Part shown: positions 24,061-62,294 of the stretch, one piece after another | Numbering within the stretch: the stretch's first letter is position 1 | Layout of the letters: each line of letters opens with the position of its first letter | Virus record (IMG/VR): IMGVR_UViG_3300010883_000001 | Coordinates: 81,182-145,181 of that record | Direction: 5' to 3' (one strand) | Length of the DNA: 64,000 bases | DNA from: a virus | Translations under genes and position numbers: made by a program | The notes under the pieces: generated by a model | Told to the model about the DNA's origin: nothing | Seen by the model: the letters and a program-made list of their open reading frames with translations, nothing else | The model's database searches: none

Positions 24061-25927
<1,867 letters not shown>

Positions 25928-25945
25928 TGTATTGTCAGAAGATGT

Positions 25946-25960: not shown

Positions 25961-25982
25961 TTAACTAGAATAGGAGGGCTTT

Positions 25983-26234: not shown

Positions 26235-26260
26235 ACCTAAATTAATTCCCGGAGAGTTTA

Positions 26261-27034: not shown

Positions 27035-27036
27035 AA

Positions 27037-27357: not shown

Positions 27358-27382
27358 TCTTTTAATTTTAAGGAGTAGTTAA

Positions 27383-27751: not shown

Positions 27752-27754
27752 CAT

Positions 27755-28586: not shown

Positions 28587-28588
28587 AA

Positions 28589-36402: not shown

Positions 36403-36482
36403 TATGCTCACCGCTCTGTATTACGATTGGGGTTACGCTTGTATATTATATTAAGAGAAAAATTTCTGGTGACTAATCAATT

Positions 36483-36737
36483 ATGGATGATAAAGATGCT
36501 CATGATCTTTTTAAAGATCTGAATTATAAGCTTAAGCTTAATTGGACAAATCATGAGCGCCGATATGGCAAATTTGTCAAGCTAAAGAAGCATGAAATAA
36601 GATATGCTGCCTTCATTAAAGATAAGTACAATGAGGTTGGCTGGGCAGTTAAGGTTATTATGGGCTTAAGCCCGGGTTTAAAACGTGAGGCCTGGCTAAA
36701 TTTTAAAGTACCCGGGTGGTCAAAGAAAGAATCTTAA
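36483..36737 (+). CDS. Small basic protein before the fibre gene, unknown
   Basis: The 84-residue protein contains DLFKDLNYKLKLNWTNHERR and VGWAVKVIMGLSPGLKREAW. I do not recognise it. Three bases separate it from the fibre-like gene. Confidence 0.55.
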   Translation: MDDKDAHDLFKDLNYKLKLNWTNHERRYGKFVKLKKHEIRYAAFIKDKYNEVGWAVKVIMGLSPGLKREAWLNFKVPGWSKKES

Positions 36738-36740
36738 AAA

Positions 36741-37997: not shown

Positions 37998-38043
37998 GCT
38001 AATTATCCACCCCTGAAATATTTATAAAAAACAGGGTTAAAGC

Positions 38044-38769
38044 TTGCAAGAACACGAGAAATTACAAATAATTGAAGATCTTATGCTAGAGTTTCCGGAA
38101 GGCCCGGGACCGAACTCACTACAGTATGACAAAATAATTATAAAAGAAACAACAGCAAGACCTGGCTCTATAAGGTATATACCCAAAGAAAGTAATTACG
38201 GATACGATCCAACAATTATTTTTTCATTGGGTATAAGAGCATATACCGAATGTAGAGATATCATTACCAGGATCGTATGTGGCGACTATTGTGATATTTA
38301 TGACAGGGAAAAAGTCTCTGATAAACAAAAACGCTTTATCCAAAATAGGGCTCCAGATGTATGGTCTAGGTTGTGTAGGGCTATGAGTAAGATACAAAAA
38401 GAAGGAGGAAGAGGAATATATAAAGTTTATAATCAGAGTTCATTTTTCAATCCTCCCCTTGGGTTTGTCTATGCAAAAAATAAGCAGGACGCGATTGATT
38501 GCTGTGACATATTATTTTCAGGATTATGCGATGATAAAAAGAGATTGATAATAGAGTTTTATGGATATGAAGATGTTAATGCTGCGATATCACATAATCG
38601 TGAGATACTACAGAAGATGTCATCAAGCATAGAGACATCACGGGTAAATGTAGATAATCTTAATAGGAGGATTTTAAAGTATGAAACAGCATTACAGAGA
38701 TTGTCAACAATTTTAGACGTTCAATTATCATTAGTAGAAAAGCAATGTGAACAAAAAGATGATGATTGA
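38044..38769 (+). CDS. Unknown protein with C-terminal coiled coil
   Basis: The start is TTG 38044, behind AGGG. An ATG at 38083 is an alternative. The 241-residue product has a mixed N-terminal domain (KIIIKETTARPGSIRYIPK) and a C-terminal coiled coil (VDNLNRRILKYETALQRLS). The location after a fibre gene suggests a tail-related role, without proof. Confidence 0.5.
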   Translation: MQEHEKLQIIEDLMLEFPEGPGPNSLQYDKIIIKETTARPGSIRYIPKESNYGYDPTIIFSLGIRAYTECRDIITRIVCGDYCDIYDREKVSDKQKRFIQNRAPDVWSRLCRAMSKIQKEGGRGIYKVYNQSSFFNPPLGFVYAKNKQDAIDCCDILFSGLCDDKKRLIIEFYGYEDVNAAISHNREILQKMSSSIETSRVNVDNLNRRILKYETALQRLSTILDVQLSLVEKQCEQKDDD

Positions 38770-38790
38770 TATTTTTATGATATGATATAA

Positions 38791-38880
38791 ATGATTGATA
38801 TTAGCGATATTTTATCAGTAGCTTTATTGGCAAATATTTCTTCTATAGTCACGTATATTATTGAGAGTAAAATTAGGTGA
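38791..38880 (+). CDS. 29-residue single-helix membrane peptide (tentative)
   Basis: ATG 38791 encodes MIDISDILSVALLANISSIV and a short basic end. It resembles two other tiny peptides in the window (55441, 63335) that also begin MI(D/E) and have one membrane helix. No ribosome site is evident. Confidence 0.3.
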   Translation: MIDISDILSVALLANISSIVTYIIESKIR

Positions 38881-38893
38881 GGTGCTATAGGAA

Positions 38894-39385
38894 ATGACTA
38901 AGAAAGAAGATGGGACGGTTGTTGGTTTTACGTGTGGATCTTTTGATTTGATGCATGCAGGGCATGTTCTTATGTTCGAAGAGTGTAAAAAATATTGTGA
39001 TAAGCTCGTAGTTGGTGTACAATCAGATCCATCAGCTGACAGGCCTGAGTCAAAGAATACACCCATCCAGACTTTTGTCGAGAGAATTTTGCTAGTAAAG
39101 TCAGTGAGATGGATTGATGACGTTATACTTTATCATACCGAGGAAGATCTTTATAGAATATTAGAGGAATTGAAACCCAGCGTTAGGATAATTGGCGAAG
39201 ACTGGAGGGATAAAGAGTATACAGGTCATAATTTACCTATTGATGTTATTTTTAATTCTAGATCCCATACATACTCAACTAGCGAATTGAGGGAAAGGGT
39301 TTATGATAGAGAAAAAAAGAAAAAAGATAAAGAGAAAAATGTAGGTCTATCTCATGGTACCGGTTTACCTACAGGAAGCGATTAG
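38894..39385 (+). CDS. Cytidylyltransferase-like nucleotidyltransferase (TagD/RfaE-type)
   Basis: In this 163-residue protein, VGFTCGSFDLMHAGHVLMF contains the HxGH signature (His21-His24), and YSTSELRERV matches the ISTTxxR segment of the family. SVRWIDDVILY and VRIIGEDWRDKEY are also usual for glycerol-3-phosphate cytidylyltransferases. It joins a sugar or polyol phosphate to a nucleotide. The C-terminal ~20 residues are Lys-rich. It overlaps the region upstream of ThyX. Confidence 0.85.
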   Translation: MTKKEDGTVVGFTCGSFDLMHAGHVLMFEECKKYCDKLVVGVQSDPSADRPESKNTPIQTFVERILLVKSVRWIDDVILYHTEEDLYRILEELKPSVRIIGEDWRDKEYTGHNLPIDVIFNSRSHTYSTSELRERVYDREKKKKDKEKNVGLSHGTGLPTGSD

Positions 39386-39389
39386 TTTT

Positions 39390-40115
39390 ATGAAAATAGA
39401 TGATGCCGCCGAAGTGAACCGGCAATACTTATATCACGATAATGATGGATTTGTTGAATATGTCCAACACATGGGTGATGATGCCACAATCGTTAATGCA
39501 GCCAGGGTTTCTTTTGGTAAACAGGTGGCTGAGTTATCTAATAAAGACAAAAAATTGATTAAATACCTTGTAGCGCATAAGCATACGTCTACTTTAGAAC
39601 ATAATGTTTTAACAATGCGGTTTAGGGTACCCTTGTTTGTTGCGCGGCAACATATGAGGCATCGTACTTGGAGTTTTAATGAAATTTCTCGTAGATATAC
39701 AAGCATTGATATGTCAATGTACGAGCCAGACATGTTCAGGGTTCAACATTCTCAGAATAGACAGGCATCCGAAGATGATGGGTTGATTAATCCCTTATGC
39801 GTGTCGACAACAGCATATGATATTGGGATATCCGGCTCAGCGTCAAGTCTAGTAAAGAGACACCACAAATCATCAATGTTACTGTATGAGTCTTTAATGC
39901 AAGCCGGTGTTTGTAGGGAACAGGCCCGCGGAGTTCTACCTCAAAATATGTATACAGAATATTTGGGAACAGTCAATCTAAATAATCTGATCAAATTTAT
40001 ACATTTGCGTATCCATGAGGGTGCACAGTGGGAGATAAGAAGGGTTGCTGAGTCTTGTTACCATATAGCTAGCTCTTTGTGGCCGGATGTTATGAAATGT
40101 GCGGTGAAAAATTAA
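39390..40115 (+). CDS. thyX: Flavin-dependent thymidylate synthase
   Basis: ATG 39390 gives 241 residues. The ThyX signature RHRx7S is perfect: Arg90-His91-Arg92 and Ser100 in RHRTWSFNEIS. SRRY follows as usual, and ARGVLPQNMYTEYLGTVNL is the FAD/dUMP-binding C-terminal segment. It makes dTMP from dUMP, using dCMP deaminase output. Its presence frees the ThyA-like enzyme at 8242 for another reaction. Confidence 0.95.
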   Translation: MKIDDAAEVNRQYLYHDNDGFVEYVQHMGDDATIVNAARVSFGKQVAELSNKDKKLIKYLVAHKHTSTLEHNVLTMRFRVPLFVARQHMRHRTWSFNEISRRYTSIDMSMYEPDMFRVQHSQNRQASEDDGLINPLCVSTTAYDIGISGSASSLVKRHHKSSMLLYESLMQAGVCREQARGVLPQNMYTEYLGTVNLNNLIKFIHLRIHEGAQWEIRRVAESCYHIASSLWPDVMKCAVKN

Positions 40116-44706: not shown

Positions 44707-44788
44707 TTAGAGACCCCAATTAACAAACATTCATTAGAATACTATTTTTATAATATTGCTATAGCTTTATTTGGAGACAGTACCATCA

Positions 44789-47074
44789 ATGAAAAACGTA
44801 ATTTTATTTCTTGTTACTCTTGCGTTTCTTGTGTCGTGCAAGGATGAGACGCCGGCGGGACAAGGTGCAGATGATCAGGAGCTCCCCCCTCGATTATCAT
44901 CTGACAATCCAGATGCTTCTCTAGAGCCAGATGTTCATATTTTAGACTGGCAACCCTCACTCCCTCCGGAGCCTGAGCTCACGCGTGAAGAACGCTGTGC
45001 ACAGATACCGGTTATCGAGACTCAAGAATATTGCCTGTGTTTTCCACAATGTTGTGATAACCAGAGGTGGTACTGCCCACCAAACCCCCGTCAGACAATA
45101 GACGTAATGCAGGTCGTTGTTGAGATTTGTGATGAGAATAAGGTACCTTGCATATTTGGGATTGACCCGGGTTGTCCGCCACCTGAAATATTATCACGAG
45201 GTGAATGCATCACACAGTGGGAGTGCCCTCCGGGAACAATCGGCGAGTTTATACGCTGGTTTGAATGCCAGCTTGAGGATGGTACGTTGGGTAGACAACA
45301 GATTATTTGTGACAAGGGCAATTTGCAACACATGCCTTGTCATCCATGTGATCCGGAGGTCTGTGACGATGAGGACAATGATTGTGATAACATCATTGAT
45401 GAAGGTAGATTTCCATGTGAGACGCAGTGTGGCGAAGGGTGGGGTTTTTGCATAGAAGGGCAAGTTGTTGATTGTAATGCGGCGAATCCTGGTGAGGAAA
45501 GATGTAATTTCCTAGATGATGACTGTGATGGCACCATTGATGAGGGTCAGAGGAATGCATGTGATGAATGTGGCCCATTATCCATAGACATATGTGATGG
45601 TGCAGATAATGACTGTGATGGTACTGTTGATGAAGAGTTAGTTCGGGAATGTGAAACTGCATGTGAAAGAGGTATCGAGACATGCGAAAATGGTAACTGG
45701 ATATCGTGTACGGCACAACAACCGGTTGATGAAGTGTGTGACGGCGCAGACAATGATTGTGACGGTCGGATTGATGAGCAACTAGATTGCCTATGTACGA
45801 TCCAGGACGTAGGAAATCTAATGCCTTGCTCAGAGCCACCGTTATTGTGTGGTCAGGGATTTAAGACATGCGAGTGTGTAGATCCGGATTGTCATGAGTT
45901 GAGAGTGACAGAGTGTGCAGCGTTATGTACGTATGTACCCCAACCACCTCCATGCGATCCTAGGGTTGGGATTGCTTTGGGGCAAGAAGAGTGTAATAAT
46001 TTTGATGAAGACTGTGATGATCTAATTGATGAGGGTTTGAGACAGGCATGTTATACCGGTGAGCCAGAAACACTACTTACGGGTGTTTGTATTCCGGGTG
46101 AAGTATATTGTGATAGGGGTACCTGGGGAAATGATAGAAATAATGCATTTGATCCAGGATATTGTTCCGGAGAAGTAACGCCTAGCGAAGAGATCTGTGA
46201 TGGAGCCGATAACGATTGTGACGGTGAGATCGATTACGGAGAAGAGATAAGGGATACTGATATTTTATTTATTGTCGACTGGTCTGGATCAATGGATCAG
46301 GAAATAGAGGCAGTTAAGATTGCATTGAATAGATTTGCACAGCATTTTGAGGCTGAGATACCACTTCAGTGGGGGTTGGTGGTTGGGCCAAAAGCATTTC
46401 CACATGCAGTTGGTCATGAAACGTTAGTATTAGTTTCAAATATATCTCCATTTGATCAATTCTTAGCTGCATTTGCGGCTTTGGGAAATGAAGGCATGTC
46501 CACCGGTAATGAGATGTTGCTGGACGCAATTTATTTTGCCGTAAGGAATATCTCTGGTAACGCCAATATAGACATTGCTGCGCTACAGTGGAGACGGAAT
46601 GTCGATTCAATCCCGGAGAAAGAAAATTTTAATATTACCTGGCGCCCAGATGCTGATAGGATCATCATTGTATTTACGGATGAGGCTGAGCAGTCTTATT
46701 TGGATCCTCAAATTACAAAACTTCATGTCGAAGATGCTTTAAGAGCAGGTATAAATCTTAAATTATACACATTTTCAATTCCTCTTATCGGAAATTGGGA
46801 AGAAATTTCTCAGGCCGGAAATGGATCTAGTTTCCCACTGTCAGATAATGCAGTTGTTATGTATAATGATCTAATGTCTATCATCGATGAAGCATGCCTC
46901 CCTAAACCGGCTAATCAACCTCAACCGGCTGCTGCAGATATTGGTGATGGGTCGGCAAGGATGTACATCACAAATTATTATGCTAATTTTTATGTAGGTG
47001 GATATGTACGCACTATTAACGAATATTCAGCCTACGATAAATATTATGATTATCATATAATGGAGTGTCGTTGA
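44789..47074 (+). CDS. Lipoprotein with MopE-type repeats and von Willebrand A domain (1)
   Basis: ATG 44789 gives 761 residues. The signal peptide ends in LVSC (lipobox, Cys17), so it is probably lipid-anchored to the envelope. A Cys-rich region precedes six copies of the C-D/N-x-x-D-N/D-DCDG-x-I-D-E motif (first EVCDDEDNDCDNIIDEG near 45360, last EICDGADNDCDGEIDYG near 46195). These are PF11617-type metal-binding repeats, common in secreted Myxococcota proteins. The C-terminal VWA domain starts DILFIVDWSGSMD (MIDAS DxSxS), with IIIVFTDEAEQS later. It is a paralogue of the next gene. A role in host surface change, attachment or exclusion is inference. Confidence 0.85.
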   Translation: MKNVILFLVTLAFLVSCKDETPAGQGADDQELPPRLSSDNPDASLEPDVHILDWQPSLPPEPELTREERCAQIPVIETQEYCLCFPQCCDNQRWYCPPNPRQTIDVMQVVVEICDENKVPCIFGIDPGCPPPEILSRGECITQWECPPGTIGEFIRWFECQLEDGTLGRQQIICDKGNLQHMPCHPCDPEVCDDEDNDCDNIIDEGRFPCETQCGEGWGFCIEGQVVDCNAANPGEERCNFLDDDCDGTIDEGQRNACDECGPLSIDICDGADNDCDGTVDEELVRECETACERGIETCENGNWISCTAQQPVDEVCDGADNDCDGRIDEQLDCLCTIQDVGNLMPCSEPPLLCGQGFKTCECVDPDCHELRVTECAALCTYVPQPPPCDPRVGIALGQEECNNFDEDCDDLIDEGLRQACYTGEPETLLTGVCIPGEVYCDRGTWGNDRNNAFDPGYCSGEVTPSEEICDGADNDCDGEIDYGEEIRDTDILFIVDWSGSMDQEIEAVKIALNRFAQHFEAEIPLQWGLVVGPKAFPHAVGHETLVLVSNISPFDQFLAAFAALGNEGMSTGNEMLLDAIYFAVRNISGNANIDIAALQWRRNVDSIPEKENFNITWRPDADRIIIVFTDEAEQSYLDPQITKLHVEDALRAGINLKLYTFSIPLIGNWEEISQAGNGSSFPLSDNAVVMYNDLMSIIDEACLPKPANQPQPAAADIGDGSARMYITNYYANFYVGGYVRTINEYSAYDKYYDYHIMECR

Positions 47075-47090
47075 GACCAAGGATATATTA

Positions 47091-49397
47091 ATGAATATTA
47101 GATTATGTATGGCAATTTTTTTATTGATTGGATGCGAGGATTCAACGATTTCACAATCCCCGATGAAGAGAGATGCTTCACGATCTGAGGCAGGCCTAGG
47201 CCTATTATTACAAGACGTTAATATACCAGGTGAACAGTTAGATGTTATGATTATACGCCAGTGGGATGCAAGACAACCGGTTATTGATGCTATTGTTGAC
47301 GCTGCTCCCCCGGAGGTTTGCGAGAGACTTGGTCTTAGAGAACCATGTCAAATAGAGGGTTTGTCTGGACCCTGTGCCATAGGTGTTAAGATATGCAATG
47401 TTACAAGCTGGTCAGGATGTAACCCGATCAGCTTTTCCAGAATAGAAATATGTGATGCTATTGACAATGATTGTGACGGCCGGCTAAACGAGGCGCCTCA
47501 TGGGTTAGCTGATGAACAGCTACCGCCGCAACACCCAATATTGTTTCGTAGTTGTTATACTGGTCCTGCTGGTACATCAAAGGAGGGAACATGCGCACCG
47601 GGTATATCAGTCTGTATGGAAATGAGAAGGGATACTGATGCAGGTGTTGAAGTGTATTATGACTATGGCACATGTGAACAGCAAATAATACCATCTGAAG
47701 AAGAGTGTGATTTATTTGATAACGACTGTGATGGCCAGACGGACGAGGGTGTCTTAAATGTCTGTAGCGAATGTGCACCTGATCCTATTGAGGTATGCGA
47801 TGGTCTCGGCATTGATGAGGATTGTGATGGTTTGATCGATGAAAATTTGTTGAACGTCTGTGGTGAATGTGGTGATGATCCCATTGAAGTTTGTGATGGC
47901 GTTGATAATAATTGTGATGGAAATATAGATGAGGAGCTTTTAAATGACTGTGGCGAATGTGGTGACGTGCCTCATGAGTTGTGTGATTTTGTTGACAACG
48001 ATTGTGATGGAAATGTAGACGAAGATTTTGCTAATGAGGTATGTGCATGTGATCACCCAGATTACGTTCCTCAGCCAGAAATATGTAATGGCGCCGACGA
48101 AGACTGTGATGGGTTTATAGACGAAGGGCCGGATGGTGGCCCTTTATCTAGATTATGCTCTACAGATTTAATGACAAATGAAATTATAACATATGACAGG
48201 CGAGAAGATGGTCCACAATATGTTGCTGGCGAATGTCGTCTAGGAATATCCCTCTGTGAATTGGGTCGAAATGCTGCCGGCGAGATGCAGCGTGGATATT
48301 ACGGATGTTTGCAAGAGATACGGCCTGGGGTTGAAAGGTGCAATGAGATTGATGATGACTGTGACGGAAATGTAGACGAAGATTTCATGCAGGGTAGTGT
48401 TGCTGTCATGATGGTCGTTGACGTATCTGGCTCCATGGATCAGGGTGAGCTACAGGCAGCTTTTGATGCTACTAGAAATTCAGTCCAAAGATTATTTAAC
48501 GATGGGGTTGTCGACGTATGTTATATGCTAGCAGTTGTCGGTAATAATGATATGCCTGATCCATACTTGTTTTACCCTGGAGATACGTGCGTTCCTGGTG
48601 TTGAAGATCCGCGAGTAGTCCCGATTGAAGATATGTCTAACGCGGTAAATACTTTGAGATTGAATTTGTTAGCTGGCATTATTAATCAGGGTGGCGCAAC
48701 AGAGAATACTTTGGATGCTATAGGTAGGTTCCTTACAGATGATCTGATCGATTGGGATAATGATGGTATACCAGAAAATATTCTGTGGAGTACTAATCGT
48801 CCTGCAGCTCAGATTCAAGGAATCCAAGATGCATGGGATGTAGACCTCAGCCAGTATACACATCGTATTGTTGTAGTGATAGGCGATGAGCCGGCCCAGG
48901 GAGCTGAATGGGGTAACCATGATGCAGCTCGAGCCATGGCTTGGGCCAATGGTATGGTTTTCATAATAGGTACTCAGCAAAATATTTGGAGCTATCAACC
49001 GCTAATCGATTTCGGTGCTGTTCATTCCGACGGGTTAGATGGATTTGGTGCACAGAATGCCCAGCAGATATCTGATGCCGTTACTGAGGCCATTGAAGAG
49101 GCAGCCTGTATTAACAGAGGCCAGGAAGAACAAGAGCATGAAGAGATACCTGGGGAACAGGCAAAAAATATTAGTTTGCCAAATACGTTTTTAGCTAATA
49201 TCAATCAAGCACATGATAAGATTATGAACGTACTTGTATACTCATGCGAAAACTGTGATTTTTTTAAAGATGATTATTTTATGAAGAACATTTTTCATAA
49301 TAATAAACCTGCTAGTAATACCGCAGAGTTTTATTATACGCATAATCAATGTTTAAATGTCAAGCCTGAACAATCTGTCATTTATACGTTTGATTAA
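47091..49397 (+). CDS. Lipoprotein with MopE-type repeats and von Willebrand A domain (2)
   Basis: The 768-residue paralogue of the previous protein has the same domain order. The lipobox is LLIGC (Cys15). About seven repeats follow (for example EVCDGVDNNCDGNIDEE and ERCNEIDDDCDGNVDED), and the VWA domain begins AVMMVVDVSGSMDQG with an intact MIDAS and later IVVVIGDEPAQGAEW. A tail with paired Cys (SCENCDFFKDD) ends the protein. AAGGA precedes the ATG, 17 bases after the first copy. The 3' end overlaps a convergent gene by 45 bases. Confidence 0.85.
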   Translation: MNIRLCMAIFLLIGCEDSTISQSPMKRDASRSEAGLGLLLQDVNIPGEQLDVMIIRQWDARQPVIDAIVDAAPPEVCERLGLREPCQIEGLSGPCAIGVKICNVTSWSGCNPISFSRIEICDAIDNDCDGRLNEAPHGLADEQLPPQHPILFRSCYTGPAGTSKEGTCAPGISVCMEMRRDTDAGVEVYYDYGTCEQQIIPSEEECDLFDNDCDGQTDEGVLNVCSECAPDPIEVCDGLGIDEDCDGLIDENLLNVCGECGDDPIEVCDGVDNNCDGNIDEELLNDCGECGDVPHELCDFVDNDCDGNVDEDFANEVCACDHPDYVPQPEICNGADEDCDGFIDEGPDGGPLSRLCSTDLMTNEIITYDRREDGPQYVAGECRLGISLCELGRNAAGEMQRGYYGCLQEIRPGVERCNEIDDDCDGNVDEDFMQGSVAVMMVVDVSGSMDQGELQAAFDATRNSVQRLFNDGVVDVCYMLAVVGNNDMPDPYLFYPGDTCVPGVEDPRVVPIEDMSNAVNTLRLNLLAGIINQGGATENTLDAIGRFLTDDLIDWDNDGIPENILWSTNRPAAQIQGIQDAWDVDLSQYTHRIVVVIGDEPAQGAEWGNHDAARAMAWANGMVFIIGTQQNIWSYQPLIDFGAVHSDGLDGFGAQNAQQISDAVTEAIEEAACINRGQEEQEHEEIPGEQAKNISLPNTFLANINQAHDKIMNVLVYSCENCDFFKDDYFMKNIFHNNKPASNTAEFYYTHNQCLNVKPEQSVIYTFD

Positions 49398-52509: not shown

Positions 52510-53322
52510 ATGCAGACAGAAAAACTACCAAAAGTTCGTGGGTACCTAAAGCCGCTTTCATCATTTAAACATTTAAATGAATGGGAGGTAGTAGTAAATA
52601 GACTAATAGACTTACAGGCAAGAGGTATAGATTCACGTGGTGGCGAGATAAGCTGCAAGGTACCTGAGTTTTGCAGCAGTGAGGATGCGTTGGCCTTCGT
52701 GCAGACAGTAGCACAAAATTTTGAGTATCTATTGACTCATGAAGTTGATCGCTGGGATCTTTTTACGAGAAAAAATGCCCTAGATTTTATTGAAGATTTT
52801 GCAAACCATCGATTTTGGGGGATGTCGCAAGAGTATGAAGATTATTTCCCTGATATTTCTTCACTTAAGTTTTCACACTTTTATTCTCGCGGTGATGTTG
52901 AGCCATATGTTCTTCTGGATGAAAGCTATACGATGCAGCTTTATGGAAGCTTGCAGAACCATAAAAAATTATTACATTTTACCAATATGGATGGTTTAGC
53001 GAGGATCCAGAAATCGATTGAAGAGAATACCTCATTTGACGTATCTAGTTTTACCATTGCAAATAGACCTTTTTTTAGGGAAGACTCAAATATTATCGTA
53101 GAGTTTATTGGTAATGTTCGTGCCGGTTTTCGTAGTGACGTAAAGTCTTATGCTGTGGAGGGTGGCAGAAAGGCTTGTAACATGTATAGGCTGCAGTATC
53201 CTGGTCATGATAAAAACAATATTTGTTATGAGCTTGATAGTTGTGATGGATCTATAAAGACGTCTTTGTGGAATGAGTATATAGCAACCCCTATGGAAAT
53301 TATATCATATCATAAAAGATGA
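52510..53322 (+). CDS. Unknown protein
   Basis: The 270-residue protein contains EWEVVVNRLIDLQARGIDS, HFTNMDGLARIQKSIEENT and a C-terminal beta-rich part. KLLHFTNMDGLARI resembles the start of some ADP-ribosyltransferase-like phage domains (LxHxT), but key residues are not evident. Unassigned. Confidence 0.5.
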   Translation: MQTEKLPKVRGYLKPLSSFKHLNEWEVVVNRLIDLQARGIDSRGGEISCKVPEFCSSEDALAFVQTVAQNFEYLLTHEVDRWDLFTRKNALDFIEDFANHRFWGMSQEYEDYFPDISSLKFSHFYSRGDVEPYVLLDESYTMQLYGSLQNHKKLLHFTNMDGLARIQKSIEENTSFDVSSFTIANRPFFREDSNIIVEFIGNVRAGFRSDVKSYAVEGGRKACNMYRLQYPGHDKNNICYELDSCDGSIKTSLWNEYIATPMEIISYHKR

Positions 53323-53384: not shown

Positions 53385-54863
53385 ATGGAAATTTTAGAAC
53401 ACCAATCAAGAGATATATTGCTTAAGTGGGCAATAGATTATGAAGAAGCCAGAATTTCTAGTACCGGTGCATTAGTTGTTCAGACCGGTATACATACCGG
53501 CAGATCTGCCGGCGCAAAAAGAATTGTTTTTGATGAGATAACAAAAGATAAAGTCAATTGGAATGATAATAAAAAAATTATGCCAAATGACTTTCATGAG
53601 ATAAAATCTTCAATGTTAACCCGCCTAGATGTCGGTGAGGGTACGGTTTTTAAACAAGAGCTTTTTGCTAATAATGATACAAAGAACCAGCTTAAGTTGA
53701 ACGTTTATACTACGTTAGCATGGCACTCAATATTTTCGAAAAATATGTTTGTAGAAAAATCTGCTCTAGGGTTTCATGATAGCGACGCAGATGAGTGGGA
53801 TCTATATTATTTTCATGATCATCTTTCATCACCGAGTGTCTTAATTTCATTTACGGAAAAAGCAATATTGATATCTGGTACCATGTATGCTGGTGAAATG
53901 AAAAAATCTGTCTTTACTGTCTTAAATTTCTGTTTACCTAATAAAGGCGTTTTACCAATGCATTGCTCTGTCAATGTTAGCAAGGCTGGAGATTCTAGTG
54001 CAATATTTTTTGGTCTTTCCGGAACGGGAAAGACGACCCTAAGTTCTGACGTTAGGCGTGATCTTGTAGGCGATGATGAACATTCATGGTCGGATACTGG
54101 ATTATATAATTTTGAAGGGGGTTGTTACGCAAAAGTTATTAACCTGTCTAAGAGTGATGAACCGCAAATTTGGGATGCCGTAAATTCAGATTTTTCTATA
54201 CTTGAAAATGTTGTTTTTGGTAATGACGATACTCCTAATTTTGATGATGACTCCATTACGCAGAACACGCGTGGATCTTATCCAATATCATCTATAAGTA
54301 ATTTCGTCGAATCGTGTTCTGCCGGCCACCCTACGAACGTTATTATGTTGACATGTGATGCATTTGGTGTACTCCCTCCCGTTTCGAAGCTTTCATATGA
54401 TGATGCAATCTCTCATTTTCTTCTAGGGTATACGGCCAAGGTTGCTGGTACTGAAGTAGGAATAGTTGAGCCAGAAGTTACATTTTCTTATTGTTATGGT
54501 GCTCCCTTTATGCCATTATCTCCAGGTGTATATGGTGATCTATTACGAGATAAATTAGTGGAACATAATCCCAATTGCTGGTTGGTTAATACCGGATGGA
54601 CAGGCGGGCCTTACGGTGTGGGATCTAGGATGCCAATATCACTTACAAGAAGTATAATTGATGCTATTCATGATGGGACGTTGGCTAATTGTTCAACTAC
54701 CCTACATGACTATACGGGTTTACGGATCCCCGTGGGTCACGATTTAATAGAGCAAAATCTATTATTTCCGGAAAAGACGTGGAATGATAAAGAGATGTAT
54801 ATTGCGGAGGCAGCTGGCCTTATGACATTATTTGATCATAAGCGCCACTTTTTGAGAATCTAA
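53385..54863 (+). CDS. pckA: ATP-dependent phosphoenolpyruvate carboxykinase
   Basis: The 492-residue protein is somewhat shorter than the ~540 residues of E. coli PckA, but its active site looks complete. GIHTGRSAGAKR holds the substrate Arg, GEMKKSVFTVLNF the metal-binding Lys pair region, LPMHCSVNV the metal His, GLSGTGKTTLS (210-220) the kinase-1a P-loop, GDDEHSW the kinase-2 acidic pair and NTRGSYPI the gamma-phosphate Arg. GTEVGIVEPEVTFSYCYG and NTGWTGG follow. It makes PEP, CO2 and ADP from oxaloacetate and ATP. This is very unusual in a phage. Its codon use is as AT-rich as its neighbours, so it is long resident rather than newly acquired. Confidence 0.93.
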   Translation: MEILEHQSRDILLKWAIDYEEARISSTGALVVQTGIHTGRSAGAKRIVFDEITKDKVNWNDNKKIMPNDFHEIKSSMLTRLDVGEGTVFKQELFANNDTKNQLKLNVYTTLAWHSIFSKNMFVEKSALGFHDSDADEWDLYYFHDHLSSPSVLISFTEKAILISGTMYAGEMKKSVFTVLNFCLPNKGVLPMHCSVNVSKAGDSSAIFFGLSGTGKTTLSSDVRRDLVGDDEHSWSDTGLYNFEGGCYAKVINLSKSDEPQIWDAVNSDFSILENVVFGNDDTPNFDDDSITQNTRGSYPISSISNFVESCSAGHPTNVIMLTCDAFGVLPPVSKLSYDDAISHFLLGYTAKVAGTEVGIVEPEVTFSYCYGAPFMPLSPGVYGDLLRDKLVEHNPNCWLVNTGWTGGPYGVGSRMPISLTRSIIDAIHDGTLANCSTTLHDYTGLRIPVGHDLIEQNLLFPEKTWNDKEMYIAEAAGLMTLFDHKRHFLRI

Positions 54864-54915: not shown

Positions 54916-54988
54916 GGGTTGCTGGCGCAATTGGCAGCGCATCGGACTTTTAATCCGTTGGTTCCGGGTTCGAGTCCCGGGCGACCCA
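54916..54988 (+). tRNA. tRNA-Lys (TTT)
   Basis: The acceptor stem is GGGTTGC with GCGACCC (one G-U pair). The D stem is GCGC/GCGC, the anticodon loop CTTTTAA in a CGGA/TCCG stem, and the T arm CCGGG-TTCGAGT-CCCGG. The discriminator base is A. CCA is not encoded. Confidence 0.93.
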
Positions 54989-55001
54989 CTACTAGGAGCA
55001 G

Positions 55002-55310
55002 TTGTTGTCACTACCAAAACTAGTCAGGGATAAAATACCTGAGATTATCAAAGAGTCAGGCCATGAACCCCAGATGCACCGAGCAATGCCTAAAGAGTTT
55101 AGCAATCTTTTGATTGAAAAGATGAAGGAGGAGTTAGCGGAGTTTGAAGAGAACCCGTGTTTGGATGAGGCGGCTGATATTTATGAGGTTTTTTTGGCCA
55201 TATTGGATAATTGGGGTATGAGTAGGGATTTGCTGGAGATGGTGGCGAAGAGCAAGAGAGACATTCGGGGTGCATTTAAAAAAGGTATTGTCTTGGAGAA
55301 AGTTTTATGA
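55002..55310 (+). CDS. MazG-like / phosphoribosyl-ATP pyrophosphohydrolase-like protein
   Basis: The start is TTG, at 55002 or 55005, behind AGGAG. The 102-residue protein has KLVRDKIPEIIKESG, MKEELAEFEENPCLDEAADI and a last helix, the layout of small all-alpha NTP pyrophosphohydrolases (EExxE...DExxD). It may clear unwanted NTPs or dNTPs. It lies between two tRNA-like genes. Confidence 0.75.
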   Translation: MLSLPKLVRDKIPEIIKESGHEPQMHRAMPKEFSNLLIEKMKEELAEFEENPCLDEAADIYEVFLAILDNWGMSRDLLEMVAKSKRDIRGAFKKGIVLEKVL

Positions 55311-55441
55311 GATATCATTTAGAAGTAATTGCACATGGTAAGCCAGGTTATTATGAAGCTGATTCTTTGTTCTATTTGTTTTGGGGAGTGTTTGTCCACC
55401 GGACTCAACACCTGCTTAAGCATGGGAAGTGGATGGACTAG
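55307..55441 (+). CDS. 44-residue protein, unknown
   Basis: ATG 55307 overlaps the previous stop and encodes YHLEVIAHGKPGYYEADSLF and a basic end (LLKHGKWMD). Overlap on both sides (ATGA, TAGTG) is typical of real small genes in this genome. Confidence 0.5.
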   Translation: MRYHLEVIAHGKPGYYEADSLFYLFWGVFVHRTQHLLKHGKWMD

Positions 55442-55548
55442 TGATAGAATTATTCGCGACAGTATGCCTAACGTTTGTCCTGTGGTTAGGATTAAAAGAT
55501 GCAATAAGCGTTATGGAAAATAAAGATAAAGATAAAGATAAAGAATAA
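55441..55548 (+). CDS. 35-residue single-helix membrane peptide
   Basis: The GTG start shares a base with the previous stop. The product has one membrane helix (MIELFATVCLTFVLWLGLKD) and a KDKDKDKE tail encoded by a GATAAA tandem repeat. It resembles the peptides at 38791 and 63335. Confidence 0.45.
   Translation: MIELFATVCLTFVLWLGLKDAISVMENKDKDKDKE
55519..55548 (+). repeat. 6-bp tandem repeat (GATAAA)
   Basis: AATAAA, then three GATAAA units, then GAATAA form the Lys/Asp tail and stop of the 35-residue peptide gene. Likely slippage expansion. Confidence 0.7.
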
Positions 55549-55621
55549 GGCTGTGTGGCGCAATTGCCAGCGCATCGGACTTTTGATCCGTTGGTTCCGA
55601 GTTTAAGTCTCGGGTGCTACA
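55549..55621 (+). tRNA. Degenerate copy of tRNA-Lys (probable pseudo-tRNA)
   Basis: From GCGCAATTG to the T arm this matches the tRNA-Lys at 54916 almost base for base: the same D arm, anticodon stem and variable loop, with loop CTTTTGA instead of CTTTTAA. The T arm is CCGAG-TTTAAGT-CTCGG, with compensated pairs. In the aligned register the acceptor strands GGCTGTG and GTGCTAC pair at only one position. GTGTGGC/GCTACAC would pair, but only by running into the D stem. It is either a decaying duplicate or a non-standard RNA. Confidence 0.5.
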
Positions 55622-55676
55622 CTATTTTACAAAGTCCTATTAAAAATAGGCAAATCTTAAAAGAAAGGAGAATATT

Positions 55677-55889
55677 ATGAAAGAACTATTATTTTTGATT
55701 GTATTGGCATCTTGCGTTGCATTAGGCTTTGCGGGGTGTGATGATGAAACAGACGTACCGGTTGTGGACGCCGGTGGAGAAGTAACAGCATCTGATGCTG
55801 GTGGTAGCGATACCACAGATTCAGAGTCTGAGACCGATAGTGGTGGTACTGATGCAGCAAAAGCTGCTGATGGATCTGAAGTAGAATAA
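55677..55889 (+). CDS. Small acidic lipoprotein
   Basis: The 70-residue protein has a signal peptide ending GFAGC (lipobox, Cys21) and a disordered Asp/Ser/Thr/Gly-rich mature part (SDAGGSDTTDSESETDSGG). Such linker-like lipoproteins are common in Myxococcota. AAAGGAG precedes the start. Confidence 0.75.
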   Translation: MKELLFLIVLASCVALGFAGCDDETDVPVVDAGGEVTASDAGGSDTTDSESETDSGGTDAAKAADGSEVE

Positions 55890-55893
55890 TACA

Positions 55894-55924
55894 ACTCGGT
55901 TTTCGGATCCTTCTAAAACCGAGT
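55894..55924 (+). terminator. Hairpin between lipoprotein gene and tRNA-Leu
   Basis: ACTCGGTTTT and AAAACCGAGT form a perfect 10-bp stem with an 11-base loop. No U-run follows, and the tRNA starts three bases later. It may be a processing or stabilising hairpin rather than a classical terminator. Confidence 0.5.
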
Positions 55925-55926
55925 AT

Positions 55927-56009
55927 GGCTGGGTGGTGGAATTGGTATACACAGCAGACTTAAAATCTGCCGGTTTTAGACCTTACGGGTTCGAGTCCCG
56001 TCCCAGCTA
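55927..56009 (+). tRNA. tRNA-Leu (TAA)
   Basis: The acceptor is GGCTGGG/CCCAGCT (first pair G-U). The anticodon arm is GCAGA-CTTAAAA-TCTGC. A long variable arm (CGGTTTTAGACCTTA region) and T arm ACGGG-TTCGAGT-CCCGT follow. 83 nt, discriminator A. Confidence 0.92.
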
Positions 56010-56032
56010 CTACTAAAGAAAGAGAAAAGAAT

Positions 56033-56248
56033 ATGAAGGATAGTCTACTATTAGACGCCGCGATCGCTTACTATGAATCTCAGAAAGCTGAGGCATTGGC
56101 AATACTTCAAGTTTATTTTTTAAACCCTGTTGGGATTGGCGATCACTCGAATCTCTTAGGCGAGATTAAGAAGTGGACGTCTATTCTTACTGAGGCGGAA
56201 GATAATTTGAAAACGTTAAATAAACATTTCCCTAAGGGAAAGAAATAA
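56033..56248 (+). CDS. Small helical protein, unknown
   Basis: The 71-residue protein has two or three helices: LLDAAIAYYESQKAEALAIL, NPVGIGDHSNLLGEIKKW and LTEAEDNLKTLNKHF. I recall relatives in marine phages, of unknown role. Its start is close behind the tRNA-Leu gene. Confidence 0.55.
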   Translation: MKDSLLLDAAIAYYESQKAEALAILQVYFLNPVGIGDHSNLLGEIKKWTSILTEAEDNLKTLNKHFPKGKK

Positions 56249-56279
56249 TAATCATAGTATATAGTTGGACTGTGTTTGA

Positions 56280-57158
56280 ATGAAAAATAATTTTAAGAGT
56301 ATCATGCAAAATTATAACAATTCTCTTGATAGAGACTTTAGCTTTGTACAGCTTGGTTGTAATGATGGTAAGATGGCAGATCCTATTTTCGAGCTCATAT
56401 ATGAGAATGGGTGGAATAACGGATTATTTGTAGACGCTGACATACATTACCTGCGAGAGGCACAGGCACTTTATAACCATACATGTCCTGGGCGTGATTT
56501 TACTTTTGCGAATGTAGGAATGGTAACTTTTTCTGATAGAGAAATTCAAAATACTAATTTGAGGAAGTTTTTTTCAATAAATCCTGATGTATTAATTCCA
56601 AAGCTTGTCCAGCATGGTGATGATTATTTTTGGGTGTATGGTACGGAACCCATAAAGCTTACCAATAATCCTCTTCTCGAGTTAATGCCCGGATTCAGCG
56701 TTGATGTTATAAATAGTCCCTTGAATTATTTGCAAGGTGTGGGAAGCTTTGACTATGATTTTGTGTTAGATCATTTTCGAAACATTATTTCAAAAGGAAT
56801 AAATGAAGATGGAAGGCCAGATATTTCCGCGTACATTGCCCGAAATCTTTTTACCGAGGATACTCTAGAACACAGAAAGTATATAAAGATGCAGATTGTT
56901 CCCGTTATGACCTTAAATGAGATTCTTTGTTTTAAAGAGTTTGAAAATATAGATTTGCTTCAGACTGACTTAGAGACCTGGGATGTAAAAATTCTTGCAG
57001 ACTTGGATAAATTTTCGCACAAGCCAAAATTTATACATTTTGAGGCTCCAGGTGCCCATGGTGGGGTTGATAAGTCATTGAGAAGTAAGTTTAAAGAGTG
57101 TGGGTATAGTCTCAATAAGATGAATGATACTCGAGATTATCTAGCAGAGTTACTATAG
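56280..57158 (+). CDS. FkbM-family methyltransferase
   Basis: In this 292-residue protein, FVQLGCNDGKMADPIFELI fits the S-adenosylmethionine loop, and VPVMTLNEILCF with IDLLQTDLETWDVKILADLD matches the FkbM pattern (tLd..l, D-x-x-K/Q-x-D-x-E). These enzymes usually O-methylate sugars or other hydroxyls. A target among phage or host surface glycans is possible. It starts alone after the tRNA-Leu block and ends before a hairpin. Confidence 0.7.
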   Translation: MKNNFKSIMQNYNNSLDRDFSFVQLGCNDGKMADPIFELIYENGWNNGLFVDADIHYLREAQALYNHTCPGRDFTFANVGMVTFSDREIQNTNLRKFFSINPDVLIPKLVQHGDDYFWVYGTEPIKLTNNPLLELMPGFSVDVINSPLNYLQGVGSFDYDFVLDHFRNIISKGINEDGRPDISAYIARNLFTEDTLEHRKYIKMQIVPVMTLNEILCFKEFENIDLLQTDLETWDVKILADLDKFSHKPKFIHFEAPGAHGGVDKSLRSKFKECGYSLNKMNDTRDYLAELL

Positions 57159-57168
57159 GTTTAAAAAC

Positions 57169-57192
57169 AAACTCAGATGCTCTACTGAGTTT
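57169..57192 (+). terminator. Hairpin ahead of slyD
   Basis: AAACTCAG, an 8-base loop and CTGAGTTT form a stem ending in TTT. It may terminate the methyltransferase transcript. It lies two bases before the AAGGAGG ribosome site of the next gene and could also affect its translation. Confidence 0.5.
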
Positions 57193-57205
57193 TAAGGAGG
57201 TTAAA

Positions 57206-57643
57206 ATGAGCAAGGTTATTGTTGAAGGAAGCGTTGTGAGTGTTCATTATCGAGGTACGCTCAATGATGGATCACAGTTTGATAGTTCGTATGACAGGGA
57301 TGAGCCAATTGGTTTTACGGTAGGTTCCGGTCATATGATTTCTGGATTTGAAGATAATGTTTTAGGTATGAGCGCAGGAGAAAAAAAGACTATAGTGCTT
57401 AAGCCAGAATCGGCATATGGTGATAGAGATGAAACCAGGATTCAGGAGATTAATAAGTCAAATTTTCCTCCGGATTTTAAGTTTATTGAGGGTGCATTTG
57501 TGCATGGTGAGACCATGAATGGCGAAGAGATTTTGGGTAAGATCACCGGTGAAAAGGAAGATGATATTGTTGTTATTGATTTCAATCATCCATTAGCCGG
57601 CCTTGAGTTGAATTTTGAAATTGAGGTTGTTGGAGTGCAATAA
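57206..57643 (+). CDS. SlyD-like FKBP peptidyl-prolyl isomerase
   Basis: The 145-residue protein has VVSVHYRGTLNDGSQFDSSY and IGFTVGSGHMISGFEDNVLG of the FKBP domain, an inserted-flap domain in the SlyD position (residues ~70-120) and the closing NHPLAGLELNFEIEV. The His-rich metal tail of E. coli SlyD is absent. It catalyses prolyl isomerisation and can act as a chaperone. Strong AAGGAGG precedes the start. Confidence 0.9.
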   Translation: MSKVIVEGSVVSVHYRGTLNDGSQFDSSYDRDEPIGFTVGSGHMISGFEDNVLGMSAGEKKTIVLKPESAYGDRDETRIQEINKSNFPPDFKFIEGAFVHGETMNGEEILGKITGEKEDDIVVIDFNHPLAGLELNFEIEVVGVQ

Positions 57644-57683
57644 TTTTATGACCTTAGGGTATGTCAATAAACTATCCTAATAT

Positions 57684-57757
<74 letters not shown>

Positions 57758-57762
57758 CAAAT

Positions 57763-57835
57763 GCTGACGTAGCTCAATTGGAAGAGCTCCTGATTTGTAA
57801 TCAGGGGGTTGGGAGTTCGAATCTCCTCGTCAGCT
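57763..57835 (+). tRNA. tRNA-Thr (TGT)
   Basis: The acceptor is GCTGACG/CGTCAGC, with discriminator T. The anticodon arm is CCTGA-TTTGTAA-TCAGG and the T arm GGGAG-TTCGAAT-CTCCT. It lies five bases after tRNA-Arg, so both are likely cut from one transcript. Confidence 0.92.
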
Positions 57836-57860
57836 TATAATCTATATACTAGGAGGGGAA

Positions 57861-58106
57861 ATGGCACGACCAGGAAATTTTTATCTAACATATAAAGAGC
57901 AGGAACAGTTACTAAGAACGCTTAAGTGGGTTAAGGTGGCAACAGTATCCAATTCTTTTCCTATCGAGCTGGATAGTATTATAGAGAAAATAGGGACTTA
58001 TATTTCTTATTTGAATGAAGAAACCTATGATCCTGTAGCTCCGGATATTACTAAAGAAGTACTAGATGAATTAGTCAGTGCTTATGGTGAAGAAAACTCT
58101 GATTAG
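57861..58106 (+). CDS. Small protein, unknown
   Basis: The 81-residue protein contains FYLTYKEQEQLLRTLKWVKV and IIEKIGTYISYLNEE. AGGAGGGG lies upstream. I do not recognise it. Confidence 0.55.
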   Translation: MARPGNFYLTYKEQEQLLRTLKWVKVATVSNSFPIELDSIIEKIGTYISYLNEETYDPVAPDITKEVLDELVSAYGEENSD

Positions 58107-58162
58107 TCGTCACAAAACCCTGAGTATCTACTAGTTAAAATTAGGTAATAGAGGGGTTTGTT

Positions 58163-58417
58163 ATGATAAGGTTTATTTTTGCTACTATATTTGTCTTTTT
58201 TTTGACGTCGCCTGTTGTGATTGCACAGGATAACCCCACCGGGACTAAGACTAAATTTTATAATTTTGATGATTTATTAATAAATGGCCAATATAAGAAA
58301 CCTCAGGTTCTTTATACTGACGCCCGTCAAAAGGTGAAGTTTGAGAGACTTCTGAAGTTAAAGAAAGACTTTTTGCCAAAACTAAAGGCCACACATAAGG
58401 ATCACTCTTTAAGATAG
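58163..58417 (+). CDS. Secreted small protein of a type seen in Myxococcota
   Basis: The 84-residue protein has a signal peptide ending SPVVIAQ. The mature part has FYNFDDLLINGQYKKPQVLY and FERLLKLKKDFLPKL. The pattern F-D-D-x-x-I-x-G-x-x-x-x-P followed by a basic helix with F-(L/I)-P-(K/E) is one I recall from short secreted Myxococcota proteins. This recollection is unverified. AGAGGGG precedes the start. Confidence 0.6.
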   Translation: MIRFIFATIFVFFLTSPVVIAQDNPTGTKTKFYNFDDLLINGQYKKPQVLYTDARQKVKFERLLKLKKDFLPKLKATHKDHSLR

Positions 58418-58419
58418 TT

Positions 58420-59376
58420 TTATTGGACCTTTACGGTAACAATATCATCAGGATCTAGATCCATCCCGAATATAATATCACATGCGGCTTCACCACCTGA
58501 GACGTCCAGTTGATAATCTGCATCAGACGCCGCCAGCTCTCCGCTAGATCCAGTGATCATTAATACACCATTCAAGAAAACATCAACTCTTTTTGATCTA
58601 GCAACACCGGAGATGATGCTGACGTTGAAGCTAAGCCCAGTACCGGTACCGGCTGCTAGCCCACCCCCTCCAATAGTGCCAGAAACTTTTTGATAAGATC
58701 TACCAGACAATACCGCACCTAATATTGACGTAAATCCTTGACCGACCATGTCGCTCCACTCTGTCGCATTATTACTGAGTCTAATTCCCTTTGTCTTATC
58801 AGTCCACGTAGAGCTCTGTATATTTCCGTCTATAAAATACAGACCATGTGTTGATGCAGAGATAACCAAGTTATTTGTTTCGTATGCTAGTGTATTTGAG
58901 TATAGTGCACCTGATACAACTAAATCGCCACCAAAGACAGAGGTACCCACTGTTGTAGTTTTTGCCGATCCAGTAGATCCTGAAACCCAAAAGTTATTAT
59001 CACTTCCTGCGCCACTGTTCGCCCCAAAGTAAACACTATCATTACTAGTATCGACAAATAACGCATGTGTGTTATTGTCACTTTCTACTCGTAGGTCTCC
59101 CCCAAAATATCCTGCTCCTGAGACATGAAGTGTTTGGTTTGATAAGAGGACAAACTTATTTTCTGAGCCCATGGGCTTAAAGACTGCGGGTGCTTCCCAC
59201 CAGTTCGATGATACATCATCAAAATTATTCAGTCTTCTAATCGAAGAGCCCATTTCATCAAGTACATGTTGCAGATCTCTTAGGCCTGGTATGGTCGCGA
59301 AAGATGAGCCTGAGCTAACCGGCAATGTTCCTGTGATAAAATGTGTTCTTGCTTGCGTTCTAGAAGGGCGAGACAT
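58420..59376 (-). CDS. Fibre-like / virion surface protein
   Basis: The 318-residue minus-strand protein is Ser/Gly/Thr-rich: an N-terminal helix (LRDLQHVLDEMGSSIRRLNN), then repeated short strands (TLHVSGAGYFGGDLRVESDN, FGGDLVVSGALYSN, HGLYFIDGNIQSST) and a compact C-terminal domain (RVDVFLNGVLMITGSSGELA). This is the style of phage fibre or appendage proteins. It ends three bases from the convergent secreted-protein gene. Confidence 0.65.
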   Translation of the reverse strand: MSRPSRTQARTHFITGTLPVSSGSSFATIPGLRDLQHVLDEMGSSIRRLNNFDDVSSNWWEAPAVFKPMGSENKFVLLSNQTLHVSGAGYFGGDLRVESDNNTHALFVDTSNDSVYFGANSGAGSDNNFWVSGSTGSAKTTTVGTSVFGGDLVVSGALYSNTLAYETNNLVISASTHGLYFIDGNIQSSTWTDKTKGIRLSNNATEWSDMVGQGFTSILGAVLSGRSYQKVSGTIGGGGLAAGTGTGLSFNVSIISGVARSKRVDVFLNGVLMITGSSGELAASDADYQLDVSGGEAACDIIFGMDLDPDDIVTVKVQ

Positions 59377-59516
59377 ACTTTACTTCCTTTCTTTTACTAT
59401 CTTTCTTTTGCGCAACAAAAATAAAAAAATAAAGTAATGAAAGGAAATAATCGTAAGACGATAAACGAACTAACGTTTGCTAAATATTGCCTATTATAAG
59501 ATTATTTTTCTGAAAT

Positions 59517-59545
59517 TTGAACATGCTGACTTATAACGTTAGAAT
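59517..59545 (+). promoter_or_regulatory. Sigma70-like promoter for the CAT tRNA
   Basis: TTGAAC at 59517-59522 and TAGAAT at 59540-59545 are 17 bases apart. The -10 ends 9 bases before the tRNA. Confidence 0.55.
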
Positions 59546-59554
59546 ATTTCTTAG

Positions 59555-59628
59555 GGGCCTCTAGCTCAATAGGTTAGAGCATCCGGCTCATAACCGGCAG
59601 GTTCGCGGTTCAAGTCCGCGGAGGCCCA
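59555..59628 (+). tRNA. tRNA with CAT anticodon, probably tRNA-Ile2 (lysidine type)
   Basis: The acceptor is GGGCCTC/GAGGCCC. The anticodon arm is CCGG-CTCATAA-CCGG and the T arm GCGG-TTCAAGT-CCGC. CAT can mean elongator Met or Ile2. Features shared with E. coli tRNA-Ile2 rather than tRNA-Met are C4-G69 and C5-G68 in the acceptor and the TTCAAGT T-loop. The phage also encodes a TilS-like enzyme, which would convert this anticodon to read AUA. Confidence 0.88.
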
Positions 59629-59648
59629 CTATTTTTAGGAGTTAATTA

Positions 59649-60127: not shown

Positions 60128-60556
60128 ATGACAACCACAATTACAAGACAACATTTTCATCCTGGCCTGTTGGGTATGGGTGTTTTTGATAGTTTATTTT
60201 CTGATATCCCAACACATCTTCAAAGATCAACTTCTGGATATCCTGTTGTTGATATTTATACGGGCAATGAAGGAGATACTATCTTAGAGTTTGCTCTAGC
60301 AGGATTTTCTAAAGAAGATCTATCTGTAGATATTCAGTCTGATAAGCGAAGCATTACAGTTACTGCATGTATGGATAATAAATCAGATGACTTGAATGTA
60401 CGTCGCATCGCAAGACGTAGTTTTAAGAAGACGTATGTAAATTATGACAATAATCTAGATTTAACAAAATCAGTTGCAAAATTTGATAATGGTTTGTTAA
60501 GTGTAATTATTCCTGTGCGACCTGAAACAAAGTCTAGACCCATTAAGATTCAGTAA
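60128..60556 (+). CDS. Hsp20 / small heat-shock protein
   Basis: The 142-residue protein carries the alpha-crystallin domain: VDIYTGNEGDTILEFALAGF, KEDLSVDIQ, RRSFKKTYV and FDNGLLSVIIPV (the A-x-x-x-NG-L/V motif), ending with PIKI, an I-x-I-like tail. These holdases stabilise unfolding proteins, and phage Hsp20 is known from marine T4-like phages. AAGGAG precedes the start, and a strong terminator follows. Confidence 0.92.
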   Translation: MTTTITRQHFHPGLLGMGVFDSLFSDIPTHLQRSTSGYPVVDIYTGNEGDTILEFALAGFSKEDLSVDIQSDKRSITVTACMDNKSDDLNVRRIARRSFKKTYVNYDNNLDLTKSVAKFDNGLLSVIIPVRPETKSRPIKIQ

Positions 60557-61286: not shown

Positions 61287-62294
61287 ATGGGAAGTTTAGT
61301 TGCTGATGTTGTTGTAGGACTTCAGTTTGGTGATGAAGGAAAAGGGAAGGTGAGTCATCATCTTGCTAAGACCGGTGAATATACACATGTGTTAAGATTC
61401 AATGGAGGATGCAATGCCGGTCATACGATCTATCATGAGGGAAAAAAGTTTGTGACGCATCATATTCCATGTGGGGTATTTTTTGGAATAAAATCTATAA
61501 TAGGCCATGGGTGTGTTCTGAACATAAAACAGTTTATGTCCGAGATTGACGAATTAGAGAGAAACGGGATTAACGTAAAGCCGCTGATAGGTATTGCTTC
61601 ACATACTAACGTAATAACAGACTTCCACGTCGCACAAGATTCTAGGGATACAAAGATAGGAACGACCAAGAGAGGAAACGGGCCGGCATATAGAGACAAG
61701 TACGCAAGAAAAGGATTGTTAGCAATTGAAGTACCGGAACTGGCTGAATACATAGTTGATCTATACACTGAGTTTCATGATAATCCTGAATTTGAGGATG
61801 TTAAGGTTCTGTGTGAAGGTGCACAAGGGTTCGGTTTGGATATAGATTGGGGTGACTACCCATATGTTACTTCAAGTCATTGTACAGCTGGTAGCGTGAC
61901 TCTAAACGGTATTACTTGTGGTTCCATTAGGAATGTGTGGGGAGTTGCAAAGGTTTATTCAACATATGTTGGCGCAAAGCAGTTTGAAGGTCAAGATCCA
62001 GATTTTGAGAAGTTGAGAAAAATCGGTGATGAGTTTGGATCTACAACTGGCCGGCCTAGACAAATTGATTGGCTAGACATGGATATGATAAAAATGGCAG
62101 TAAAGATTAATGGCGTGAATAAGCTCGTTTTTAATAAAGTGGATATCCTTGAAGAACTGGGCATATGGAGACTATATTCTGGGCCGTCTGTTGAAGAGTT
62201 TAATGATGCCAAGACCATGCACGAATTCATACTATCAGAATTATCAGATAGAGATATTGAGACTATGTTCTCGTGTAGTCCTTATGAGATTTAG
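61287..62294 (+). CDS. purA: Adenylosuccinate synthetase-family enzyme, short form
   Basis: The 335-residue protein is about 100 shorter than E. coli PurA and near the size of archaeal and phage forms. GLQFGDEGKGK holds the catalytic Asp16 (E. coli Asp13), GGCNAGHT the His41 equivalent, IGTTKRGNGPAY the IMP loop, VTSSHCTAG the aspartate region, TGRPRQIDWLD the Arg loop, and FNKVDIL the GTP-base NKxD. In phage PurZ (2-aminoadenine genomes) the catalytic Asp is, as I recall, replaced. Here it is kept, so ordinary PurA or a PurZ0-like intermediate is likelier. AGGAG precedes the start. Confidence 0.85.
   Translation: MGSLVADVVVGLQFGDEGKGKVSHHLAKTGEYTHVLRFNGGCNAGHTIYHEGKKFVTHHIPCGVFFGIKSIIGHGCVLNIKQFMSEIDELERNGINVKPLIGIASHTNVITDFHVAQDSRDTKIGTTKRGNGPAYRDKYARKGLLAIEVPELAEYIVDLYTEFHDNPEFEDVKVLCEGAQGFGLDIDWGDYPYVTSSHCTAGSVTLNGITCGSIRNVWGVAKVYSTYVGAKQFEGQDPDFEKLRKIGDEFGSTTGRPRQIDWLDMDMIKMAVKINGVNKLVFNKVDILEELGIWRLYSGPSVEEFNDAKTMHEFILSELSDRDIETMFSCSPYEI

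Follow-up and report, generated by a model that had tools for sequence, protein, structure and literature searches.

The stretch of DNA analysed here (64,000 nucleotides, henceforth the window) raises the question whether a phage carries a working PEP carboxykinase (PEPCK) and, if so, which purpose the enzyme serves during infection. PEPCK sits where the TCA cycle meets gluconeogenesis. Most of the metabolic genes known from phages to date have to do with photosynthesis, nucleotides or the pentose phosphate pathway. At positions 53385 to 54863 (+), where a PEPCK gene had originally been predicted, an open reading frame with an ATG start encodes a protein of 492 amino acids. Its sole match in Pfam is PF01293 (PEPCK_ATP, E=3e-171), with a score of 570.6 bits against a cut-off of 26.5 and coverage of profile positions 3-458 of 465, and the closest solved structures are the PEPCKs from Thermus (4.6e-129) and E. 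coli (5.8e-113). Compared with the NCBIfam pckA models, the cut-offs of which are naming thresholds and represent no mechanistic feature, the protein stays below the limit for TIGR00224 (530 bits, cut-off 590) and lies just above that for NF006821 (370.3, cut-off 369), which is in line with a diverged member of the PEPCK family. Judged by its sequence, the gene product is an ATP-dependent PEP carboxykinase and as such belongs to a known enzyme family.

The structure predicted on the basis of 26 aligned sequences from the window and the loci (pLDDT 89.7, pTM 0.90) matches Thermus PEPCK 1j3b best (Z 50.5, 1.6 Å over 477 residues), followed by a Z of ~46 for the E. coli enzyme. The ATP-PEPCKs from Actinobacillus and Anaerobiospirillum are also among the structural matches. 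Solved ATP-PEPCKs yield Z values of 44-50 whereas GTP-PEPCKs reach only about 30; this difference and the adenine site formed by R415 and T421 indicate that the protein is of the ATP and not of the GTP type.

An alignment with the E. coli chain 1aq2 allowed all 14 catalytic and ligand residues examined to be placed in the phage protein (E. coli counterparts in brackets; all features on the plus strand). The substrate loop, TGRSAGAK instead of the usual TGRSPKDK (53496-53519), retains R40 (R65) and carries Ala44 for Asp (D69). The motif YAGEMKK (53886-53906) provides Y168, K173 and K174 (Y207, K212, K213) to the substrate and Mn site, and H193 (H232; 53961-53963) is a further Mn ligand. The PEPCK P-loop GLSGTGKT (G210-T217; 54012-54035) with S212, K216 and T217 (S250, K254, T255) is present, as is the second kinase motif with its two aspartates, D230-D231 (D268, D269; 54072-54077), at the metal site. 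K250 (K288; 54132-54134), R296 (R333; 54270-54272) and the ATP-type adenine site from R415 to T421 (R449, T455; 54627-54647) complete the set. None of the ligands of Mn and substrate (E. coli R65, Y207, K212, K213, H232, D269, R333) is missing. Both the gene assignment and the intact active site of the original prediction are therefore borne out.

The viral record is 145,181 bp long, and the window covers its final 64 kb. This contig is DNA of a large T4-like phage because it carries T4-type terminase (TerL, 2.5e-47), portal (3.9e-78), major head protein (2.4e-70), sheath (1.4e-51) and prohead protease genes; a T4 baseplate protein, a gp32-like protein, RecA and ribonucleotide reductase are likewise encoded on it, and DNA polymerase III-like and sigma-factor genes lie within the window. 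By terminase, the nearest named phages are Flavobacterium phage immuto (39%) and Microcystis phage Mel-JY01 (43%). The GC content of pckA (0.383) fits that of the window's open reading frames (0.391 +/- 0.032). Structural genes and matching GC rule out contamination or a chromosome junction for this contig, and the join to a bacterial chromosome that had been named as evidence against a phage origin was looked for and is not there. Immediately upstream of pckA, a gene at 52510-53322 (+) encodes a protein of 270 amino acids without family match that is not kept beside pckA in related phages. Directly downstream follows a tRNA-Lys (54916-54989, +), the first of five tRNAs in 54916-59629; within this run, a weak tRNA-like match at 55556-55613 (+; Rfam 37 bits, no ARAGORN call) is perhaps a decayed tRNA. 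A scan for promoters and terminators performed no better than shuffled sequences.

The enzyme is not confined to a single phage. A single-sequence scan of viral contigs returned no match because the patterns were too specific, while an alignment-based scan of IMG/VR gave 80 viral PEPCK loci and a clade-specific scan four more relatives of the window protein (L287, L288, L290, L296; the matched stretch of L290 contains one stop). A tree built from 149 proteins puts the window protein into a viral group with 21 members (support 99). In a tree of 49 proteins, its clade (clade A, 15 rows) and clade B (5 rows) received support of 95/93 and 100/100, respectively, and A plus B are split with 96/93 from all cellular sequences included, 24 in total. 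The latter derive from the 80 top-scoring cellular matches listed for a phage-led query, and the true cellular neighbours of clade B may not be among them. The best cellular match to the window protein among those listed is 50% identical, versus 56% for the phage protein L009; the clade A members mostly show 48-56% identity, with 43% for L030. On the sequences compared, clade A is a phage-only PEPCK branch. It comprises 28 viral contigs from more than 20 distinct phages, several contigs being near-identical, so that the proposed search for pckA in related phages was successful; together with the T4-type structural genes on the contig and strong purifying selection (see below), this upholds the claim that the gene is phage-encoded.

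The relatives also resemble the window phage in their structural genes. Among 14 clade A records tested, T4-type terminase, sheath and major head protein were each found in ten, all three in nine and at least one in eleven; the other three records are fragments of 35-108 kb. Terminases are 47-68% and head proteins 47-70% identical to those of the window phage where compared, the corresponding PEPCK values being 49-56% (L030: 43%), and the subgroup formed by L015, L024 and L019 appears in terminase, capsid and PEPCK trees alike. The genes flanking pckA vary between clade A subgroups, indicating that either pckA changed its place in the genome or the genes around it turned over, and conserved operon partners were seen only within close relatives and not across the clade. 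A capsid relative of 273 kb lacks PEPCK, which makes pckA an accessory gene and not one essential to the lineage; it is one of 21 further capsid relatives among the matches listed, none of them with PEPCK, but most of these contigs are short and only the 273-kb one is informative. The remaining viral PEPCKs are placed among enzymes from Bacteroidota, Planctomycetota and Bacillota, implying that viruses acquired pckA several times. A second phage-only PEPCK clade of 35 rows (for example L049:5075-7449, L074:5063-7416 and L086:5063-7416) has pckA directly 3' of a gene that by eye resembles a DNA methyltransferase (SPPYGVG motif), and the 270-kb contig of L086 encodes T4-type terminase, sheath and capsid.

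What, then, is the enzyme used for? We favour, with a probability of about 0.57, a functional ATP-PEPCK that acts as an auxiliary metabolic enzyme of large T4-like phages and converts oxaloacetate to PEP for gluconeogenesis and pentoses. That the enzyme is active is suggested by its identity, its active site and the selection on it, and it is probably put to work during infection rather than being a stray host gene; catalytic activity, the direction of flux and a limiting role of the product in infection are what we infer. Oxaloacetate and ATP would be converted to PEP, CO2 and ADP in the infected cell, and TCA-cycle carbon stemming from amino or organic acids would be drawn up into gluconeogenesis. 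A flux of this kind into PEP and sugars is plausible. It would supply pentose phosphate and sugar precursors to a phage with a nucleotide-synthesis set of its own: ribonucleotide reductase, ThyA-like and ThyX proteins, thymidine kinase, an IMPDH/GMP-reductase-like protein and a short adenylosuccinate synthetase are all encoded on the contig. If the host feeds on amino or organic acids, the pentoses for nucleotides come via PEP and gluconeogenesis, and the simplest benefit would be a PEPCK that stays active after host shut-off. Counted against this reading are the PEPCK-less 273-kb relative and the fact that, among the open reading frames of the contig that were scanned, PEPCK is the only gluconeogenic or PEP-producing enzyme seen.

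A serious rival is an enzyme that mostly runs in the carboxylating, ATP-forming direction (PEP + CO2 + ADP → oxaloacetate + ATP) and thereby furnishes aspartate for purines and pyrimidines. ATP-type PEPCKs are reversible, as is established for the enzymes from Actinobacillus and Anaerobiospirillum. The adenylosuccinate synthetase-like gene, whose product uses aspartate derived from oxaloacetate, suits this opposite direction and counts against the gluconeogenic one. Furthermore, dedicated PEP-using synthases are nearly absent, with NeuB in one and a DAHP/KDO8P-type synthase in none of 15 PEPCK phage records, so that no dedicated PEP sink was found. On the other hand, adenylosuccinate synthetase occurs in just five of the 15 records, and it is typically fermenting hosts at high CO2 that use PEPCK for carboxylation. 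We consider this direction possible, albeit not probable.

Both the gluconeogenic and the carboxylating direction presuppose the ordinary reaction, and it is here that the peculiarities of clade A have to be weighed. In all 22 clade A proteins the loop aspartate is replaced by alanine (TGRSPxDK to TGRSPxAK), whereas all 79 cellular proteins with this column filled, among the matches listed, and all but one of the 41 clade B proteins carry Asp. Three of the added clade A members share the alanine and the fourth ends before the loop. Clade A furthermore lacks the DGTxS hairpin that precedes a central beta strand, and the two ends are trimmed by about 40 residues altogether. These features, along with the TIGR00224 score below cut-off, would suit a protein that has lost or changed its reaction in favour of another substrate or a regulatory or moonlighting role. 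Such a loss is unlikely, however: the loop's catalytic arginine is kept despite the alanine, and the 14 residues placed in the window protein, among them the substrate, metal and nucleotide ligands, are kept in every one of the 22 clade A proteins, the one deviation being Ser for T421 at the adenine site in four of them. Except that Thr and Ser are exchanged at two positions of the ATP site, the catalytic residues are complete in all 22 clade A and all 41 clade B sequences. In addition, dN/dS amounts to 0.035-0.085 within clade A (seven phage pairs with unsaturated synonymous distances of 0.08 to 1.5), values that point to function-preserving selection on PEPCK in phages. The loop change beside R40 could alter the kinetics. 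More tentatively, and with some doubt, clade A may represent a phage-evolved PEPCK with altered catalysis, in which the alanine and the lost hairpin and ends retune direction, CO2 handling or regulation, with the result that the enzyme is freed from host control and works for the nucleotide production of the phage.

An assembly or binning artefact that joined bacterial pckA to phage DNA, or a recent neutral pick-up, is a largely refuted and highly improbable explanation, since, although several PEPCK "phage" records do resemble bacterial chromosome, clade A is phage-only across independent assemblies, structural genes lie on the same contigs, GC matches, purifying selection is evident and the phage neighbours differ by subgroup. 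In the named phage collection seven of eight PEPCK matches are, or look like, bacterial DNA: UPMK_1 has pckA near menaquinone genes, and half-megabase Salmonella contigs are likewise chromosome-like. L003 (MG543995) is among the records of this appearance. The sole convincing case is the uncultured 636-kb phage LR756504, in which a Bacteroidota-like PEPCK (L002:9962-11536) resides among large structural-looking genes; loci closely matching it occur in IMG/VR contigs of 348 and 268 kb (L084 and L042). The original statement that phages rarely encode gluconeogenic enzymes consequently holds for named phages but understates the spread of PEPCK in uncultured large phages.

The phage enzyme shares the whole fold, all catalytic residues and the ATP-type adenine site with bacterial PckA but is only 43 and 42% identical to the Thermus (1j3b) and E. 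coli (1aq2) proteins, from which it also differs by the loop alanine, the missing hairpin and the trimmed ends. The PEPCK of LR756504 is likewise that of a huge phage; however, it is 41% identical to the window protein, has 524 residues, groups with a Bacteroidota enzyme and keeps TGRSPKDK, all of which speaks for a separate acquisition. In a library of predicted viral structures, the PEPCK fold was found only in Catovirus and Klosneuvirus and in no phage protein, the best match being a Catovirus protein of 480 amino acids. These giant-virus ATP-PEPCKs (Catovirus CTV1, Klosneuvirus KNV1) are also virus-encoded, but by viruses of eukaryotes, and exhibit 34% and 20% identity, respectively. PEPCK in giant viruses is on record (PMC9270025, PMC8407384). 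In the open-access papers searched, the same enzyme is named once as a viral auxiliary metabolic gene, for trench-sediment contigs, in the parts of that report consulted by annotation and without phylogeny, active-site or selection analysis (PMC12448302). Lambda CI acts on the same metabolic step, but it represses the host pckA gene and encodes no enzyme (PMC6359870, PMC6814406). Nothing on PEPCK in jumbo phages was found in the open-access literature. Provisionally, and as far as the open literature searched goes, neither clade A nor its modified loop appears to have been described before. The locus is accordingly a real phage-borne PEPCK from a phage clade under selection, a member of a known family on an apparently undescribed phage-specific branch. 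A deep phage-only clade of this kind, kept by selection, would mean that large T4-like phages seize the TCA/gluconeogenesis junction in their hosts, and their PEPCK offers a testable route to the question whether PEP and pentose or oxaloacetate and aspartate limit phage production.

Several other genes of this phage deserve mention. Two kinds of thymidylate synthase are encoded on one contig, a ThyA type (PF00303, 3.7e-34; window 8242-9231) and a ThyX type (PF02511, 3e-47; window 39354-40115). The short adenylosuccinate synthetase (335 amino acids, PF00709 1.2e-82; window 61287-62294, +) scores 140.6 with the NCBIfam PurZ model (cut-off 300) versus 278 with a PurA model, such that it is PurA-like and an identity as PurZ (2-aminoadenine) is unsupported. 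Two adjoining large lipoprotein-like proteins (window 44771-49397, +) contain MopE-type metal-binding repeats (PF11617, two members, best 1e-27), the second also a part that by eye resembles VWA; relatives lie near pckA in L009 and L035. We take such repeats to recall Myxococcota-like hosts. An adjacent pair of sheath-like proteins of about 1,050 residues each (contig G000:C1:33082-36309 and 36352-39456) is common to many related phages. The chaperone set consists of GroEL-like, DnaJ, peptide deformylase, FKBP isomerase and Hsp20 proteins (window 24252-29620, 57206-57643 and 60128-60556), and an IscU iron-sulfur scaffold (contig G000:C1:63587-63979, L007:3587-3979) matches TIGR01999 at 6.3e-66, exceeding the cut-off of that model.
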